Below, piece after piece: positions 35,130-41,690 of a stretch of DNA of 43,461 bases. Both the position numbers and the translations under genes were made by a program. This DNA comes from Terriglobales bacterium. GTDB lineage: Bacteria; Acidobacteriota; Terriglobia; Terriglobales; Acidobacteriaceae. Positions within the stretch are counted from its first letter, which is position 1; every line of letters starts with the position of its first letter. The DNA lies in contig DATIBR010000123.1 of NCBI GenBank assembly GCA_035457425.1, positions 1 to 43,461 of the forward strand, in the 5' to 3' direction. The notes under the pieces are model-generated. The model was not told the DNA's origin. It searched no databases and worked only from the letters and a program-made list of their open reading frames with translations.

Positions 35130-36821
35130 CTGCAACTACTGGCCACAATCTGGAGCTACGGGTGCGCCTGGGCGGCGTCCCTCTACCTGTGGGCGGCGCA
35201 GAACAAGGGCGCCTGGGAGACCATCAAGCGCACGGTCAGCCGCGTGGTCACCAACCCGTTCGTGGTGTACGAGGGCGGCAAGAGCCGCCCGCTCTACCAG
35301 CTCGACGGCTTCGACCTCTCCATCCTGCTTCCCTACTTCGCGGTGATGATCGTGCTCGCGACCTACGGCATGCACCGCTACCAGCTCGTCTGGATGTACT
35401 ACCGCAACAAGCGGAACAAGACGACCGAGCCGCCGGCGCGGTTCGCGGAGCTGCCGCGCGTCACCATCCAGCTGCCCATCTTCAACGAGCAGTACGTGGT
35501 CGACCGGCTGGTGGACTCGATCTGCAAGCTCGACTACCCGAAGGACAAGCTCGACATCCAGGTGCTCGACGACTCGACCGACGAGACGGTCGAGGTCGCG
35601 CGCGCGGTGGTGGAGCGCTACGCCGCGGTCGGCAATCCCATCACGCATCACCATCGCACCAACCGCGAGGGCTTCAAGGCGGGCGCGCTGCACGAGGGCC
35701 TGAAGACCGCGGAGGGCGAGTTCGTCGCCATCTTCGACGCCGACTTCGTCCCGCCGGAAGATTGGCTGATGAAGGTCGTGCACCACTTCACCGATCCCAA
35801 GGTCGGCATGGTGCAGACGCGCTGGACGCACCTCAACCGCGACTACTCGTTCCTCACCAACGTCGAGGCCATCCTGCTCGACGGCCACTTCGTGCTCGAG
35901 CACGGCGGGCGCTCGCGCTCGCGCGTCTTCTTCAACTTCAACGGCACCGCCGGCATGTGGCGCCGCCAGGCCATCGACGAGGCCGGCGGCTGGGAGCACG
36001 ACACCCTCACCGAGGACACCGACCTCAGCTACCGCGCGCAGCTCAAGGGCTGGGAGTTCAAGTACCTGCAGGACGTCGAGTGCCCGGCGGAGCTGCCCAT
36101 CGAGATGACGGCGTTCAAGGTCCAGCAGGCGCGCTGGGCGAAGGGCCTGATCCAGTGCGCGAAGAAGGACCTGCCGAAGGTCTGGCGGTCGAACGCGCCC
36201 TGGCGCGTGAAGCTGGAAGCGTTCTACCACCTGACGGCGAACATCTCGTATCCGCTGATGATCCTGCTCTCGGTGCTGCTGTTGCCGGCGATGGTCACGC
36301 GCTTCTACCAGGGCTGGTTCCAGATGCTCTACATCGACCTGCCGCTGTTCCTGGCGTCGACCTTCAGCATCTCGTCGTTCTACCTGGTGTCGCAGAAGGA
36401 GCTGTTCCCGAAGCAGTGGCCGCGGACCTTCCTCTACCTGCCGTTCCTGATGGCGCTCGGCATCGGGCTCACGCTCACCAACACGCGCGCGGTGATGGAG
36501 GCGCTGTTCGGCTACCAGACCTCGTTCAAGCGGACGCCGAAGTACCGCGTGCAGAAGAAGGGCGACGCCGTCCTGGCAAAAAAGTACCGGCGGCGGCTGG
36601 GCATTGTGCCCTGGATCGAGCTCGCCGTGGGCTGCTACTTCGCGCTCACCGTGTGGTACGCCCTCGTCAACCAGAACTACATCACGGTGCCGTTCCTGGT
36701 GCTGTTCGTCTTCGGCTACTGGGCGACCGGGCTGATGTCGCTGCTGCAGGGCCGCTTCGAGCGCGCCACCGGCCGCGGCACCGCCGAGCTGCACGAGAAG
36801 CCGTTCCCGGTCGGCGTCTGA
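35130..36821 (+). CDS. Membrane family-2 glycosyltransferase (cellulose synthase-like)
   Basis: A 563-residue processive-type GT2. An N-terminal helix ([18 protein letters not shown]) and a second one ([16 protein letters not shown]) lead into the catalytic domain: [29 protein letters not shown], the DxD in [10 protein letters not shown] (about Asp203/Asp205), TEDTDLSYR (about 294-302) and QQARWAKG (QxxRW, about 332-336). Four or five helices follow at the C-terminus. It would polymerise a beta-linked glucan or mannan, or glycosylate a lipid; the product is not known. No in-frame ATG, GTG or TTG with a Shine-Dalgarno sequence is available, but CTG 35130 follows GGAGGAG (35118-35124) by 5 bases and gives a complete first helix. 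The alternative is GTG 35244, without a Shine-Dalgarno sequence. Confidence 0.85.
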
Positions 36822-38050
36822 TGTCACAGACCGGCATGTTCGCCTTGCTGGGCGCGATGCTCGTGCTCGGCTTCCTGGCGAATCGCGCCTTCCAGATCAC
36901 GCGCGTGCCCGACCCCATCGTGCTGATGATCGCCGGCGTGCTCGCCGGCCCGGTGCTTCACCTGGTGGGCGAAAATGCCTTCCAGCCGGTCATCAACGTA
37001 TTCGGTACCCTGGCGCTGCTGCTGGTGCTGTTCGAGGGCGGGCTCGAACTCAACGTTCGCGAGACGATGCGCCACTTCCCCGGCGGGTTTGTGCTCGCAT
37101 TCCTCGGCTTCGTCATGTCAGCTGGAATGGTGGCCCTGGTCGCGCGCTTCGCCATCACCGGCATGGGCTGGAGCGGCGCGCTGCTGATCGGCGCCGTGCT
37201 GGGATGTACGTCCAGCACCGTCGTCCTCCCTATCCTGCAGCAGGTGCGCGTGCACGACTCCACCAGGGTCGTGCTGCTGGTGGAATCGTCGCTGGCGGAC
37301 GTCATCGCCGTGGTCGGCGTCGGCATCCTGGTAGACGTCACCAGCCTGGGCGGAGCGCTGCTGGGCTCCCTGCTGGGCGGCTTCCTCTCCAAGGTGCTCA
37401 TCTCGCTGGTCACCGGCGGCGTGGCTGGGTTCCTGTGGTCGCGCGTCTTGCCGCGGCTGCTGCGTGCCAGGTTCTGGTACGTGCTGACTTTCGGCGCGGT
37501 CCTGCTCGTCTATGCGGGAACCAGATCGATCGGCGGCAGCGGGCTCATCGCCGTGCTCTGCTTCGGGGTGACGCTCGGCAACATCCGGCCGGTCACGCGC
37601 ACGCTCGCCGACGCCGCCGCTTCCGAGCGCCTCTCCAAGGAAGCGTACCTCCAGGTGCTGGCATTCCATTCCGAGCTGGGGTTCCTCATCCGGACCTTCT
37701 TCTTCTTCGTGCTCGGTACGCTGGTGCAGCTCGCGGATGCGGAGTTGCTGGTCGCCGCGCTGGGCATGTTCGCGGCCATCGTGGTGGCGCGCGCTCTCGC
37801 GGTGCAGGCCAGCCGCTGGTCGTGGCAGGTACCGCGCGAGGACCGCAGCCTCGTCTTCTTCATGATGCCGCGCGGGCTGGTGACCGCGGTACTGGCGGTG
37901 CAGGTCATCGAAGCCCGCGGCGCCGATTTCGAATGGCTTTCTCCCATCGTGTTCCTCATCATCCTGCTCACCAGCGCGGTCGTCGTGCTGGGCACGTGGA
38001 GGGCGTCCGCGGCGCAGGCGGGGCTTGCCTCCACCGCCCCAACGCTGTAA
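36821..38050 (+). CDS. Cation/proton antiporter (CPA family, Kef/NhaP-like)
   Basis: A 409-residue membrane protein with about 12 helices. Family blocks: DPIVLMIAGVLAGPVLHLVG, LALLLVLFEGGLELNVRE, GALLIGAVLGCTSSTVVLPI, VLLVESSLADVIAVVGVGIL (ion-binding SLAD region) and FFMMPRGLVTAVLAVQVIE. Typical of monovalent cation/H+ antiporters. No C-terminal TrkA/RCK regulatory domain is present, so it is the short form. Its ATG (36821) overlaps the glycosyltransferase stop as TGATG (36819-36823), so it is translated by coupling. The length is normal for the transporter core. Confidence 0.92.
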   Translation: MSQTGMFALLGAMLVLGFLANRAFQITRVPDPIVLMIAGVLAGPVLHLVGENAFQPVINVFGTLALLLVLFEGGLELNVRETMRHFPGGFVLAFLGFVMSAGMVALVARFAITGMGWSGALLIGAVLGCTSSTVVLPILQQVRVHDSTRVVLLVESSLADVIAVVGVGILVDVTSLGGALLGSLLGGFLSKVLISLVTGGVAGFLWSRVLPRLLRARFWYVLTFGAVLLVYAGTRSIGGSGLIAVLCFGVTLGNIRPVTRTLADAAASERLSKEAYLQVLAFHSELGFLIRTFFFFVLGTLVQLADAELLVAALGMFAAIVVARALAVQASRWSWQVPREDRSLVFFMMPRGLVTAVLAVQVIEARGADFEWLSPIVFLIILLTSAVVVLGTWRASAAQAGLASTAPTL

Positions 38051-38073
38051 CTTTTTCTCCTGCGGTGCCTCTC

Positions 38074-38523
38074 ATGCCCATGCGTCGCCTTTCCATCGCC
38101 GCGCTTCTGCTCGTTGCCGCCACCGCCTACGCGGGCGACAACCTCAAGCTCAATCCCAAGCTCGACTACGACTCCGATTCGCTCGACGGCCCGCTCATCT
38201 CGGGCGAGCGCATGACCGAAGGCCTGGTCAAGGGCAAGGTCAACTACATCCTCATCGTGGGCGAGGGTTGATGGAATTCCAAGCGGCAGGCTCGCCGCTC
38301 CGTCACGCTCTATGAGAAGTACAAGGACCGCGTGAACTTCGTCGTCATCGACATGGACACGCACCTCTCCAACGACCAGCTCCAGCTCGCGCGCCGCTAC
38401 TATAAGGGACTGATCCCGCACGTGGTCGTCACCGACCGCTTCGGCAAGCCGGTGTACGACGACTCCGGCGAGGTCGAGGAGAAGACCATCATCAAGTCCA
38501 TCGAGAAGGCGCTCTCGAAGTAA
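38074..38523 (+). CDS. Probable selenoprotein: exported thioredoxin-fold protein with in-frame TGA (Sec66)
   Basis: The frame runs from ATG 38074 to TAA 38521-38523 (149 residues) with one internal TGA at 38269-38271. It has a signal peptide (MPMRRLSIAALLLVAATAYA) and a thioredoxin-like fold: strand NYILIVGEG, then U66-W-N-S69-K in the place of the C-x-x-C-K of thioredoxin, helix ARRSVTLYEKYKD, strand VNFVVIDMD, helix QLQLARRYYKG, and a cis-Pro115 strand (LIPHVVVTDRFG). The TGA thus falls exactly on the first catalytic Cys; the second is Ser. A hairpin with loop AGGCTC starts 11 bases after the TGA. I therefore read TGA as selenocysteine. A nonsense mutation or a sequencing error is the alternative. 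No Sec-synthesis gene lies in this window. Confidence 0.75.
38269..38299 (+). promoter_or_regulatory. Putative bacterial SECIS element (UGA plus hairpin)
   Basis: After the TGA (38269-38271), AGCGGC (38282-38287) pairs with GCCGCT (38294-38299). The six-base loop AGGCTC begins 16 bases after the TGA and has G as its second base. Bacterial SECIS elements have the apical loop about 16-37 nucleotides after the UGA and a G in the first two loop positions; in E. coli fdhF the loop region is GCAGGUCUGC, close to GCAGGCUCGC here. Confidence 0.65.
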
Positions 38524-38529
38524 GGCTCC

Positions 38530-38589
38530 ACCACAAAGGACACGAAGGCTTCACGAAGGGCTTCGTGCGACCTTTGTGTCCTTTGTGGT
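38530..38589. repeat. Inverted repeat after the selenoprotein gene
   Basis: ACCACAAAGGACAC (38530-38543) and GTGTCCTTTGTGGT (38576-38589) are perfect 14-bp inverted arms. Between them lie CACGAAG and CTTCGTG copies, so a longer bulged hairpin can form. It starts 7 bases after the stop and may be a terminator. The CACAAAGGACACGAAGG word is a dispersed repeat seen in many environmental genomes. Confidence 0.6.
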
Positions 38590-38601
38590 ATCGCTTTTCG
38601 T

Positions 38602-38607
38602 TACAAT
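38602..38607 (+). promoter_or_regulatory. Putative -10 element (TACAAT) of the Xaa-Pro peptidase gene
   Basis: TACAAT ends 11 bases before the ATG at 38619 and the spacer has no Shine-Dalgarno sequence, as in the other leaderless-type starts. Confidence 0.45.
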
Positions 38608-38618
38608 CGGCCTTCGCC

Positions 38619-39959
38619 ATGAGAGCCACTCGAACGCTTGTCATCGCCCTCCTTCTGCTTTCCCCGTTAGCCGCCGCGATCGAGCGGCAGCCCAACGCCG
38701 ACTACCGCGCGCGCCGGCAGAAGCTCGCGGACGCCGCCGGCACCGGCGTGGTCGTGATGTTCGCCGCCACCGAGGCCGAAGGTCCGAACGCGCTCTACGG
38801 CTTCCGGCAGGACGACGACTTCTACTACCTGACCGGCTGGTCGGAGCCGGGCGCGGCGCTCCTCATCGCGCCGGCAGCGAAGGCGGTGGGCGAGAACAAG
38901 GAGCGCCCCTACACCGAGATCCTCTTCCTGCCGGCGCACAACGCGACGCAGGAGAAGTGGACCGGCCCGAAGCTCGGCCCGGAGAACCCGCGCGCGAAGG
39001 AGCTGACCGGCTTCGACGACGTGAAGGTGCTCGACCAGATGCGCGACGAACTGGTGCGCCTGCTGCCGGCGCCGCGCGCGACCGTCTACTCGGACCTCGC
39101 GGCCTGGGACGAGAGCCGGCCGGCGACCATCCCGCTGCAGTGGCTGCGCCGCGCGAACTCGTTCCCCAACTACATCAGCTTCGAGGACGCCGCGCCGCTG
39201 GTCGCGCGCCTGCGCATGACCAAGGACGCGGGCGAGCTCGCGCTCATCAAGAAGGCGACCGACGCCTCCGTCGCGGCGCACCTGGCGACCTTCCAGGCGA
39301 TCAAGCCGGGCGTGACCGAGCGCGAGATCTCCGCGCTCATGCAGTACGAGTTCGGGCGGCGCGGCTGCGAGCGACCCGCGTACGCCCCGATCGTCGGCTC
39401 GGGCCTCTACTCGACCGTGCTGCACTACTCCGCCGACTCCCAGACCATGCAGGCCAGCGACGTGGTGGTGATGGACGTGGGCGGCGAGTACTCGATGTAC
39501 GCCACCGACATCACGCGCACGCTGCCGGTCTCCGGCAAGTTCACGGCGCGGCAGCGCGAGATCTACGACATCGTCTACGGCGCGCAGCAGGCGGCCATCG
39601 CGGCCTTCCAGCCGGGCAAGTCGGCGCTCAGCGGCCAGAGCCCGAACTCGCTCTACAAGGTCGCCTACGACTACATCAACACGCACGGCAGGGATTCGCA
39701 CGGCCAGCCGCTGGGCAAGTACTTCATCCACGGGCTCGGGCACCACGTCGGCCTGAACGTGCACGACGCCAACGACCCTTCCGTGCCGCTCGACAAAGGC
39801 ATGGTGTTCACGCTCGAGCCCGGCATCTACATCCCGGAAGAAAAGCTGGGGATCCGGCTGGAGGACATCTTCTACGTCGACGCGAACGGCAGGCTGGTGA
39901 ACATGAGCGCGGCCATCCCGCGCACGGCGGAGGAGATCGAGAAGGCGATGGGAAAGTAA
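38619..39959 (+). CDS. Secreted Xaa-Pro aminopeptidase (M24B, PepP-like)
   Basis: A 446-residue protein with a signal peptide (MRATRTLVIALLLLSPLAAA). The N-terminal creatinase-like domain has DFYYLTGWSEPGAALLIAP. The pita-bread catalytic domain has the five metal ligands of M24: Asp in VVMDVGGEYSMYATDITRT (two Asp), His in HGLGHHVGLNVHD, Glu in FTLEPGIYIP and a final Glu in IRLEDIFYV. It should remove N-terminal residues before proline with two Mn or Zn ions, in the periplasm or outside the cell. The family usually ends near 440 residues. Flanked on both sides by inverted repeats. ATG 38619 is chosen over an upstream GTG because it gives the signal peptide. Confidence 0.92.
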   Translation: MRATRTLVIALLLLSPLAAAIERQPNADYRARRQKLADAAGTGVVVMFAATEAEGPNALYGFRQDDDFYYLTGWSEPGAALLIAPAAKAVGENKERPYTEILFLPAHNATQEKWTGPKLGPENPRAKELTGFDDVKVLDQMRDELVRLLPAPRATVYSDLAAWDESRPATIPLQWLRRANSFPNYISFEDAAPLVARLRMTKDAGELALIKKATDASVAAHLATFQAIKPGVTEREISALMQYEFGRRGCERPAYAPIVGSGLYSTVLHYSADSQTMQASDVVVMDVGGEYSMYATDITRTLPVSGKFTARQREIYDIVYGAQQAAIAAFQPGKSALSGQSPNSLYKVAYDYINTHGRDSHGQPLGKYFIHGLGHHVGLNVHDANDPSVPLDKGMVFTLEPGIYIPEEKLGIRLEDIFYVDANGRLVNMSAAIPRTAEEIEKAMGK

Positions 39960-40829: not shown

Positions 40830-41690
40830 ATGCCCTCGGCAACTTCCACCAAAGTGCGCGACATCTCGGTAGCGCACTCGCCCGACTCCGACGACGCCTT
40901 CATGTTCTACGCGCTCGCGACCAACAAGGTCCGCGTACCGGGGCTGAAGTTCAACCACACGCTCACCGACATCGAGACGCTCAACCGCAAGGCGCGCGAG
41001 GGCAAGGGCTTCTACGACGTCACCGCCATCAGCTTCCACGCCTATCCTTATATCCAGGATAACTACGCGCTGCTGCCCTCGGGCGGCTCGGTCGGCGAAG
41101 GCTACGGCCCGATGATCATCGCCTCCAAGGCGCTCTCGGCCGAAGAGGTCACGAGCAGGAAGATCGCCATCCCCGGCACGCTGACCACGGCGTACCTCGC
41201 GCTCAAGCTGTTCGCGCCGCAGGTCGAGACCGAGGTCGTGCCGTTCGACCAGATCATGCCGCAGGTCGAGGCCGGCAAGTACGAAGCCGGGCTCATCATC
41301 CACGAAGGCCAGATCATGTACGACCGTCACGGCCTGCATAAGGTCGTGGACCTCGGCAAGTGGTGGCGCGACAGGACCGGGCTGCCGCTGCCGCTGGGCG
41401 GCAACGCCATCAAGCGCTCGCTCGGCAAGGAGACCATCGCGCAGGTCTCGAAGGCCCTGAAGGACTCCATCCAGTACGCGCTCGACCATCGCGACGAGGC
41501 GCTGGAATACGCCATGCAGTTCGCGCGCGACCTCGACCGCTCGCTCGCCAACCGGTTCGTCTCCATGTACGTGAACGAGCGGACGGTGGACTACGGCGAG
41601 GAAGGCCGCCGCGCCATCAAGCTGCTGCTGGACGAGGGGCACAAGGCGAAGATCATCCCGCACAAGGCCAAGGTGGATTTCGTGGAGTAG
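40830..41690 (+). CDS. mqnD: 1,4-dihydroxy-6-naphthoate synthase, futalosine menaquinone pathway
   Basis: A 286-residue MqnA/MqnD-family protein without a signal peptide. It begins ISVAHSPDSDDAFMFYALAT, close to the S-P-D-D/N-D-x-F-x-F pattern of MqnD; then NRKAREGKGFYDVTAISFHA, YGPMIIASKAL, GTLTTAYLALKLF, GLIIHEGQIMYDRHGL and PLPLGGNAIKRSLG. MqnD turns cyclic dehypoxanthine futalosine (the product of MqnC) into 1,4-dihydroxy-6-naphthoate. The length fits. It is separated from the convergent PilZ gene by only 12 bases. No clear Shine-Dalgarno sequence. Confidence 0.93.
   Translation: MPSATSTKVRDISVAHSPDSDDAFMFYALATNKVRVPGLKFNHTLTDIETLNRKAREGKGFYDVTAISFHAYPYIQDNYALLPSGGSVGEGYGPMIIASKALSAEEVTSRKIAIPGTLTTAYLALKLFAPQVETEVVPFDQIMPQVEAGKYEAGLIIHEGQIMYDRHGLHKVVDLGKWWRDRTGLPLPLGGNAIKRSLGKETIAQVSKALKDSIQYALDHRDEALEYAMQFARDLDRSLANRFVSMYVNERTVDYGEEGRRAIKLLLDEGHKAKIIPHKAKVDFVE

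Follow-up and report, generated by a model that had tools for sequence, protein, structure and literature searches.

The prokaryotic selenoproteins were catalogued in a review of May 2026 as 119 families or subfamilies (PMC13188914). Its thioredoxin-fold members (Trx, Prx-like and DsbA/DsbG-like proteins in Table 1 of that review) have Sec at a redox motif, Cys homologs and a SECIS element just past the UGA codon. For Trx, Prx-like thiol:disulfide oxidoreductase, DsbG-like and DsbA-like form 1 proteins, the motif entered in the catalogue is UxxC (or UxxU); UxxS is entered only for rhodanese-like form 1 (PF00581), arsenate reductase (TIGR00014) and Prx-like (cd02970) proteins, some rows of the catalogue being without a motif (PMC13188914). 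The bSECIS model in the same source has a stem of 4–16 bp, a loop of 3–9 nt with a G within the first two loop positions, a spacing of 16–37 nt and an MFE of −7.5 kcal/mol or lower (PMC13188914). For one acidobacterium, the genome data in print include a count of 3 known selenoprotein genes (PMC12013277).

Here we analysed a stretch of 43,461 nucleotides (the window), which is contig C123 of an assembly of 3.14 Mb in 192 contigs (96.5% complete). The nearest kin are filed as Candidatus Korobacter, order Terriglobales, and from this filing the window would belong with that taxon. It contains a gene that we predict, with little doubt and from comparative sequence data, to encode a selenoprotein in which UGA is read as Sec (Table 1). 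The shared features of the thioredoxin-fold selenoproteins recur in this gene: Sec would occupy a redox motif, Cys homologs exist, and a SECIS hairpin lies just past the UGA.

Table 1. Coordinates of the predicted selenoprotein gene and its parts in the window
Feature	Position	Strand	Description or basis
Predicted selenoprotein gene	38074..38523	+	149 aa, signal peptide plus thioredoxin-fold domain; start ATG at 38074 or 38080
In-frame TGA, predicted to be read as Sec; residue 66, motif U-W-N-S	38269..38271	+	TGA/Cys pairing among homologs and Sec machinery in the genome
bSECIS apical hairpin, 6 bp AGCGGC/GCCGCU, loop AGGCUC	38282..38299	+	16 nt past the TGA; −10.2 kcal/mol
Putative signal peptide (n-region MRR, hydrophobic core, AYA|GDN cleavage site)	38080..38136	+	By eye
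Invariant Pro115 codon, at the place of the thioredoxin cis-proline loop	38416..38418	+	Alignment and AlphaFold2 model

The initial annotation had described a single frame with one lone internal TGA and family-like sequence on either side of it, and this description was confirmed. The frame runs through 149 residues to a terminal TAA, with its single TGA at codon 66 (VGEG-U-WNSKRQARRS), and residues invariant in a 30-row alignment of the family flank the TGA both upstream (L24, D38 and G44) and downstream (N68, S69, K70, R71 and Q72, followed by P115 and E133). The N-terminus resembles a signal peptide (MRRLSIAALLLVAATAYA|GDN, read by eye), and the N-termini of relatives are similarly hydrophobic. 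A table-11 reading breaks the gene at the TGA, as had been anticipated: in the table-11 ORF list (≥80 aa), the same-frame ORF 37204–38271 stops exactly at this codon and no ORF reads through it.

An order-level search covered 397 genomes and detected the protein in 35 of them. The 30 best of its 38 listed matches make up the 30-row alignment; the remaining 8 had no in-frame TGA, and one of these had a TAA. A scan of named genomes, with search patterns that included NSKRQARR, gave 48 loci. Loci were counted as distinct when their 72-base stretches at the site differed; the site was located via xxNSKR with the C/TGA residue left free. Among 52 distinct homologous loci, codon 66 was TGA in 12 and Cys (TGC/TGT) in 40, with no other codon, and each of the 12 TGA frames contained only that single TGA. 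An unreadable locus with a broken frame and no motif (L097) lies outside these counts, whereas L096 and L098, affected by an N run and a frameshift, are within the 52 and outside the tree and the codon statistics. A distant member from another family of the phylum (L121:1501-1854), found later and not among the 52, has Cys in a C-F-N-T motif instead of C-x-N-S. Both the placement of the TGA at the catalytic Cys position and the expectation of Cys or Sec at residue 66 in homologs had been put forward beforehand. The TGA coincides with the only conserved Cys column of the family, and Cys or TGA was present at all 52 loci, with Cys in L121 as well and no unrelated sense codon. Because the TGAs fall in this one column in 12 of the 52 loci, with one TGA per frame in those 12, their placement is more than chance. 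The same TGA was also found in a separate assembly of the same genus (L022, same contig as L051).

The AlphaFold2 model of the protein (pLDDT 89) has a thioredoxin fold in which residue 66 stands directly before helix 67–83 (helix 1), strand 56–62 is upstream of the site, and the invariant Pro115 precedes the facing strand 116–120. This is the strand-U-helix and Pro-strand layout that the initial annotation had read from the sequence, and the two marks of the thioredoxin fold class, a catalytic residue at the N-terminus of helix 1 and a Pro before the facing strand, are both present. Thioredoxins were the best PDB matches in the fold search (1fb0, Z 11.9, rmsd 2.1, 99 aligned), and fold searches gave a function no narrower than thioredoxin. 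A PDB search with the single sequence yielded no match below E 0.2, and profile matches included ResA/TlpA-type thiol-disulfide oxidoreductases (5um7, E 0.00062; 4nmu, E 0.019). These share the thioredoxin fold with the window protein, but their aligned site is CxxC, whereas that of the family is C/U-x-N-S.

The full motif of the family is U/C-(F/Y/W/S)-N-S-K-R. N-S follows C/U-x in all 30 rows of the protein search and at all 52 loci, at the latter partly by choice since the search patterns included NSKRQARR or xxNSKR. No other Cys is conserved, strays being confined to the N-terminal part of two rows and to the two broken rows, and the second Cys that defines TrxA and the UxxC selenoprotein thioredoxins is absent. 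The U-x-x-S site without a resolving Cys, as first proposed, agrees with the Cys forms, which have C-x-N-S (C-x-N-T in L121).

The UxxS motif is shared with the rhodanese-like form 1, arsenate reductase and Prx-like (cd02970) families of the catalogue, whereas the UxxC (or UxxU) families differ from the window protein, which has UxNS and no second thiol (PMC13188914). Rhodanese (PF00581) and arsenate reductase models were absent for the 30 rows, and the weak matches there were to Thioredoxin_8 and Thioredoxin_2. No Pfam or NCBIfam model scored above its cut-off for the window protein. The best NCBIfam match, over residues 53–145 and in 30 of 30 members, was NF038096 (slr1796, cyanobacterial thylakoid photosystem I accumulation factor), for which the window protein scored 35.1 bits against a cut-off of 140; slr1796 carries the label ‘thylakoid-specific thioredoxin’, that is, thylakoid-located and thioredoxin-like, in one publication (PMC7880944). 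The selenoprotein models in NCBIfam gave no match above cut-off, TsoB matching weakly in 13 of the 30 rows. No row of the review's catalogue fits by name, domain or motif, its 119 families having been compared by description only (PMC13188914), and the present proteins probably form an uncatalogued family of a known kind. In the selenoprotein and selenocysteine literature on Acidobacteria, Acidobacteriota and Koribacter, a scope that most subscription papers fall outside, there was no apparent description of the family, which may nonetheless be in print.

We suggest from the conserved anatomy that the hairpin recruits SelB with Sec-tRNA(Sec) and that the UGA would be decoded as selenocysteine. 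The signal peptide would then carry the protein out of the cytoplasm, where it may act as a one-selenol redox enzyme (U-x-N-S) whose attacking nucleophile is the selenolate heading helix 1. A selenenyl-sulfide or selenenic acid arising from turnover would be resolved by an outside thiol, either a small molecule or a partner protein; such a thiol would be required because the protein has no resolving Cys. Our best guess is a periplasmic one-selenol redox enzyme, whose reaction is most likely periplasmic disulfide or sulfenic-acid reduction, or isomerisation, and we lean somewhat towards disulfide-type chemistry. A selenoprotein that reduces peroxide or another oxidant, similar to glutathione peroxidase or 1-Cys Prx and with one selenol in a thioredoxin shell, is a possible but doubtful alternative. 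The lack of a resolving Cys and the interchange of Sec and Cys among related species would suit such an enzyme; however, the sequence and fold neighbours listed are thioredoxins and ResA/TlpA-type proteins, and there is no Prx or GPX model among the Pfam/NCBIfam matches.

The window hairpin, with its 6-nt loop, falls within all limits of the published bSECIS model. It was found at the same 16-nt distance in 11 of the 12 TGA forms, in one of them (L035) with one swapped pair; in L040 our script ranked a longer alternative hairpin first, and the same 18-base hairpin is also there. Selection on the hairpin nucleotides is visible. In codons +1 to +11 of the 11 TGA forms, synonymous codon identity had a mean of 0.83 versus 0.53 elsewhere in those genes, where the best of 76 other 11-codon stretches reached 0.71, whereas 27 acidobacterial Cys forms averaged 0.44 over this stretch of codons. 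These means, the SECIS alignment and the SECIS model do not include the remaining TGA locus, L080. All 66 of 66 pair cells pair, with a single compensation (GC to CG in L035), and this swap of G-C to C-G in the stem corresponds to two synonymous Arg changes. At residue +10, 11 of 12 TGA forms encode Ser (TCC), whereas 37 of 38 Cys forms encode Thr; the T of TCC forms the closing A-U pair of the stem, so Ser at this position keeps that pair. The codon preceding the TGA is GGT in 11 of 12 TGA forms versus 6 of 38 Cys forms, in which it is mixed. On the 3′ side of the hairpin, substitutions among TGA forms favour third codon positions (1408, 924, 2284), and the window compared with its nearest relative (G001) alone shows a small third-position excess (19, 16, 24).

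By bare rules, SECIS-like hairpins are common: they follow 111 of the window's 927 TGAs, counted on both strands, and occur in 5 of 38 Cys forms. The folding energy is unexceptional (z −0.84 for 60 nt after the window TGA); the evidence is the conservation of the hairpin, not its mere presence. For 45 nt, z was −2.45 in the window, but −0.83 in L022 and −0.90 in L035. Shuffles matched the pair count in 40 of 500 cases, which is a weak control because only one pair varies. When the SECIS model (R1) was run against the whole genome, it returned its own site only and no sister SECIS of like sequence, and all matches in an Rfam scan of 38050–38620 were below gathering scores.

A search for selA, selB, selD and tRNA-Sec, the check suggested at the outset, located all four in the same assembly: tRNA-Sec on contig C92 (72.7 bits, ARAGORN anticodon TCA), SelA (563 bits), SelB (337 bits, match positions 1–492 of 581, near a contig end) and SelD (373 bits; L019:1501-2427, G000:C127). 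SelD of this genome has its own in-frame TGA in the context AAG-U-ASK, which agrees with the SelD motif UxxK in the catalogue (PMC13188914), and is itself a probable selenoprotein judging by this sequence.

Across the 12 genomes with TGA forms, SelA was above cut-off in all and SelB in 11 (G142 misses). tRNA-Sec was counted when ARAGORN called tRNA-SeC (8 genomes) and additionally in G014 on its 70.2-bit score alone, which gave 9 of 12; RF01852 had matches in all 14 control genomes, 5 of them over the cut-off, and a match near the cut-off therefore means little. No tRNA-Sec was found in the nearest relative (G001), G117 or G322, where the best matches were called Gly, Ser and Leu by ARAGORN, and none adjoins selA in G001 or G117. 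The three genomes have selA and selB despite the missing tRNA-Sec match. G001 is 90% complete, G322 76% complete, and G117 is in ~190 contigs; their tRNA-Sec is likely to lie on a lost contig. SelA was also above cut-off in 24 of 25 genomes without a fetched TGA form, which indicates that the Sec machinery does not force the Sec form. The interpretation of the TGA as Sec in the initial annotation is supported by the sel genes, the Cys/TGA homologs, the TGA in the same genus and the conserved hairpin.

The TGA might still be a true stop, that is, a nonsense mutation or an assembly error in a Cys-form gene, which would leave the gene broken. One locus looks like such a case. At L080 (L080:5001-5384) the Sec codon is TGA, but residue +10 is Thr, no hairpin qualifies after the TGA, and the tree places the locus closest to Cys forms; its genome does carry tRNA-Sec, SelA and SelB. 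Because of the absent hairpin, the Thr and the Cys kin, we read this locus as probably non-Sec, most likely a Cys gene with a point change or a sequence error. L080 is an example of the false case, and the window gene does not resemble it. For the window gene a true stop is very improbable: the same TGA occurs in 11 loci that share a near-frozen hairpin, including the separate assembly of the same genus, there is no further in-frame stop, the protein after the TGA remains conserved, and the Sec machinery is in the genome. Insertion of a different amino acid at the UGA, either through a changed code (Trp or Gly) or through near-cognate readthrough, is less credible still, for it has the open frame across the TGA in its favour and nothing beyond, while non-TGA homologs have Cys in 40 of 40 cases, UGA is an ordinary stop in the window, ending the glycosyltransferase frame 35244–36821, and SelA, SelB, SelD and tRNA-Sec are present.

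With Sec as the preferred reading of the codon, we think it fairly likely that these proteins are exported one-selenol enzymes with a thioredoxin fold (U-x-N-S, without a resolving thiol) and make up a family missing from the catalogue. This family would be patchily distributed in Terriglobales, with Sec and Cys forms replacing one another among relatives, and every Sec form would carry a near-identical SECIS that fixes Ser for Thr at +10. In the tree, in which 14 of the 47 inner branches are drawn open, the Sec forms do not group as a single clade and their label needs 5 changes. A phylum-wide draw gave matches in just 3 of 396 genomes, namely G000 and G010, both with already known TGA forms, and G579 with the Cys-containing L121, suggesting that the family is patchy. 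Cys forms were also detected in records titled Dadabacteria, Thermodesulfobacteriota or Thermodesulfobacteriales, and Deltaproteobacteria, and tblastn gave no plasmid match. The QIAS01 assembly has two separate members of the family, one a Sec and the other a Cys form (L059 and L081).

The selenoproteome of this phylum, on which we found little literature, probably gains a new family from these data. The family, in which Sec forms coexist with Cys forms and the chemistry is not confounded by a second thiol, would be a clean system for studying the benefit of selenium to an exported redox enzyme, and it would equally suit asking how readily lineages exchange Sec for Cys.

Upstream of the gene, the window encodes glycosyltransferase and Na/H exchanger domains, and downstream an aminopeptidase P-like M24 protein, BioY and MqnA. 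Near the family loci, an upstream glycosyltransferase was present in 20 of 52, an M24 peptidase in 15 of 52 and mqnA in 7 of 52 (6 of them TGA forms), as counted with a home-made ORF picker on flanks of unequal length. Assignment of a substrate from gene neighbours was rejected, the neighbours being too general. The MqnA-type menaquinone biosynthesis gene (PF02621) at 40830–41690 adjoins BioY. An inverted repeat (38522–38597) with exact CCACAAAGGACAC arms at 38531–38543 and 38576–38588 separates the selenoprotein gene from the M24 peptidase gene. Rfam microRNA matches at this repeat were below gathering scores; it is the sole such pair in the window and is REP- or terminator-like.
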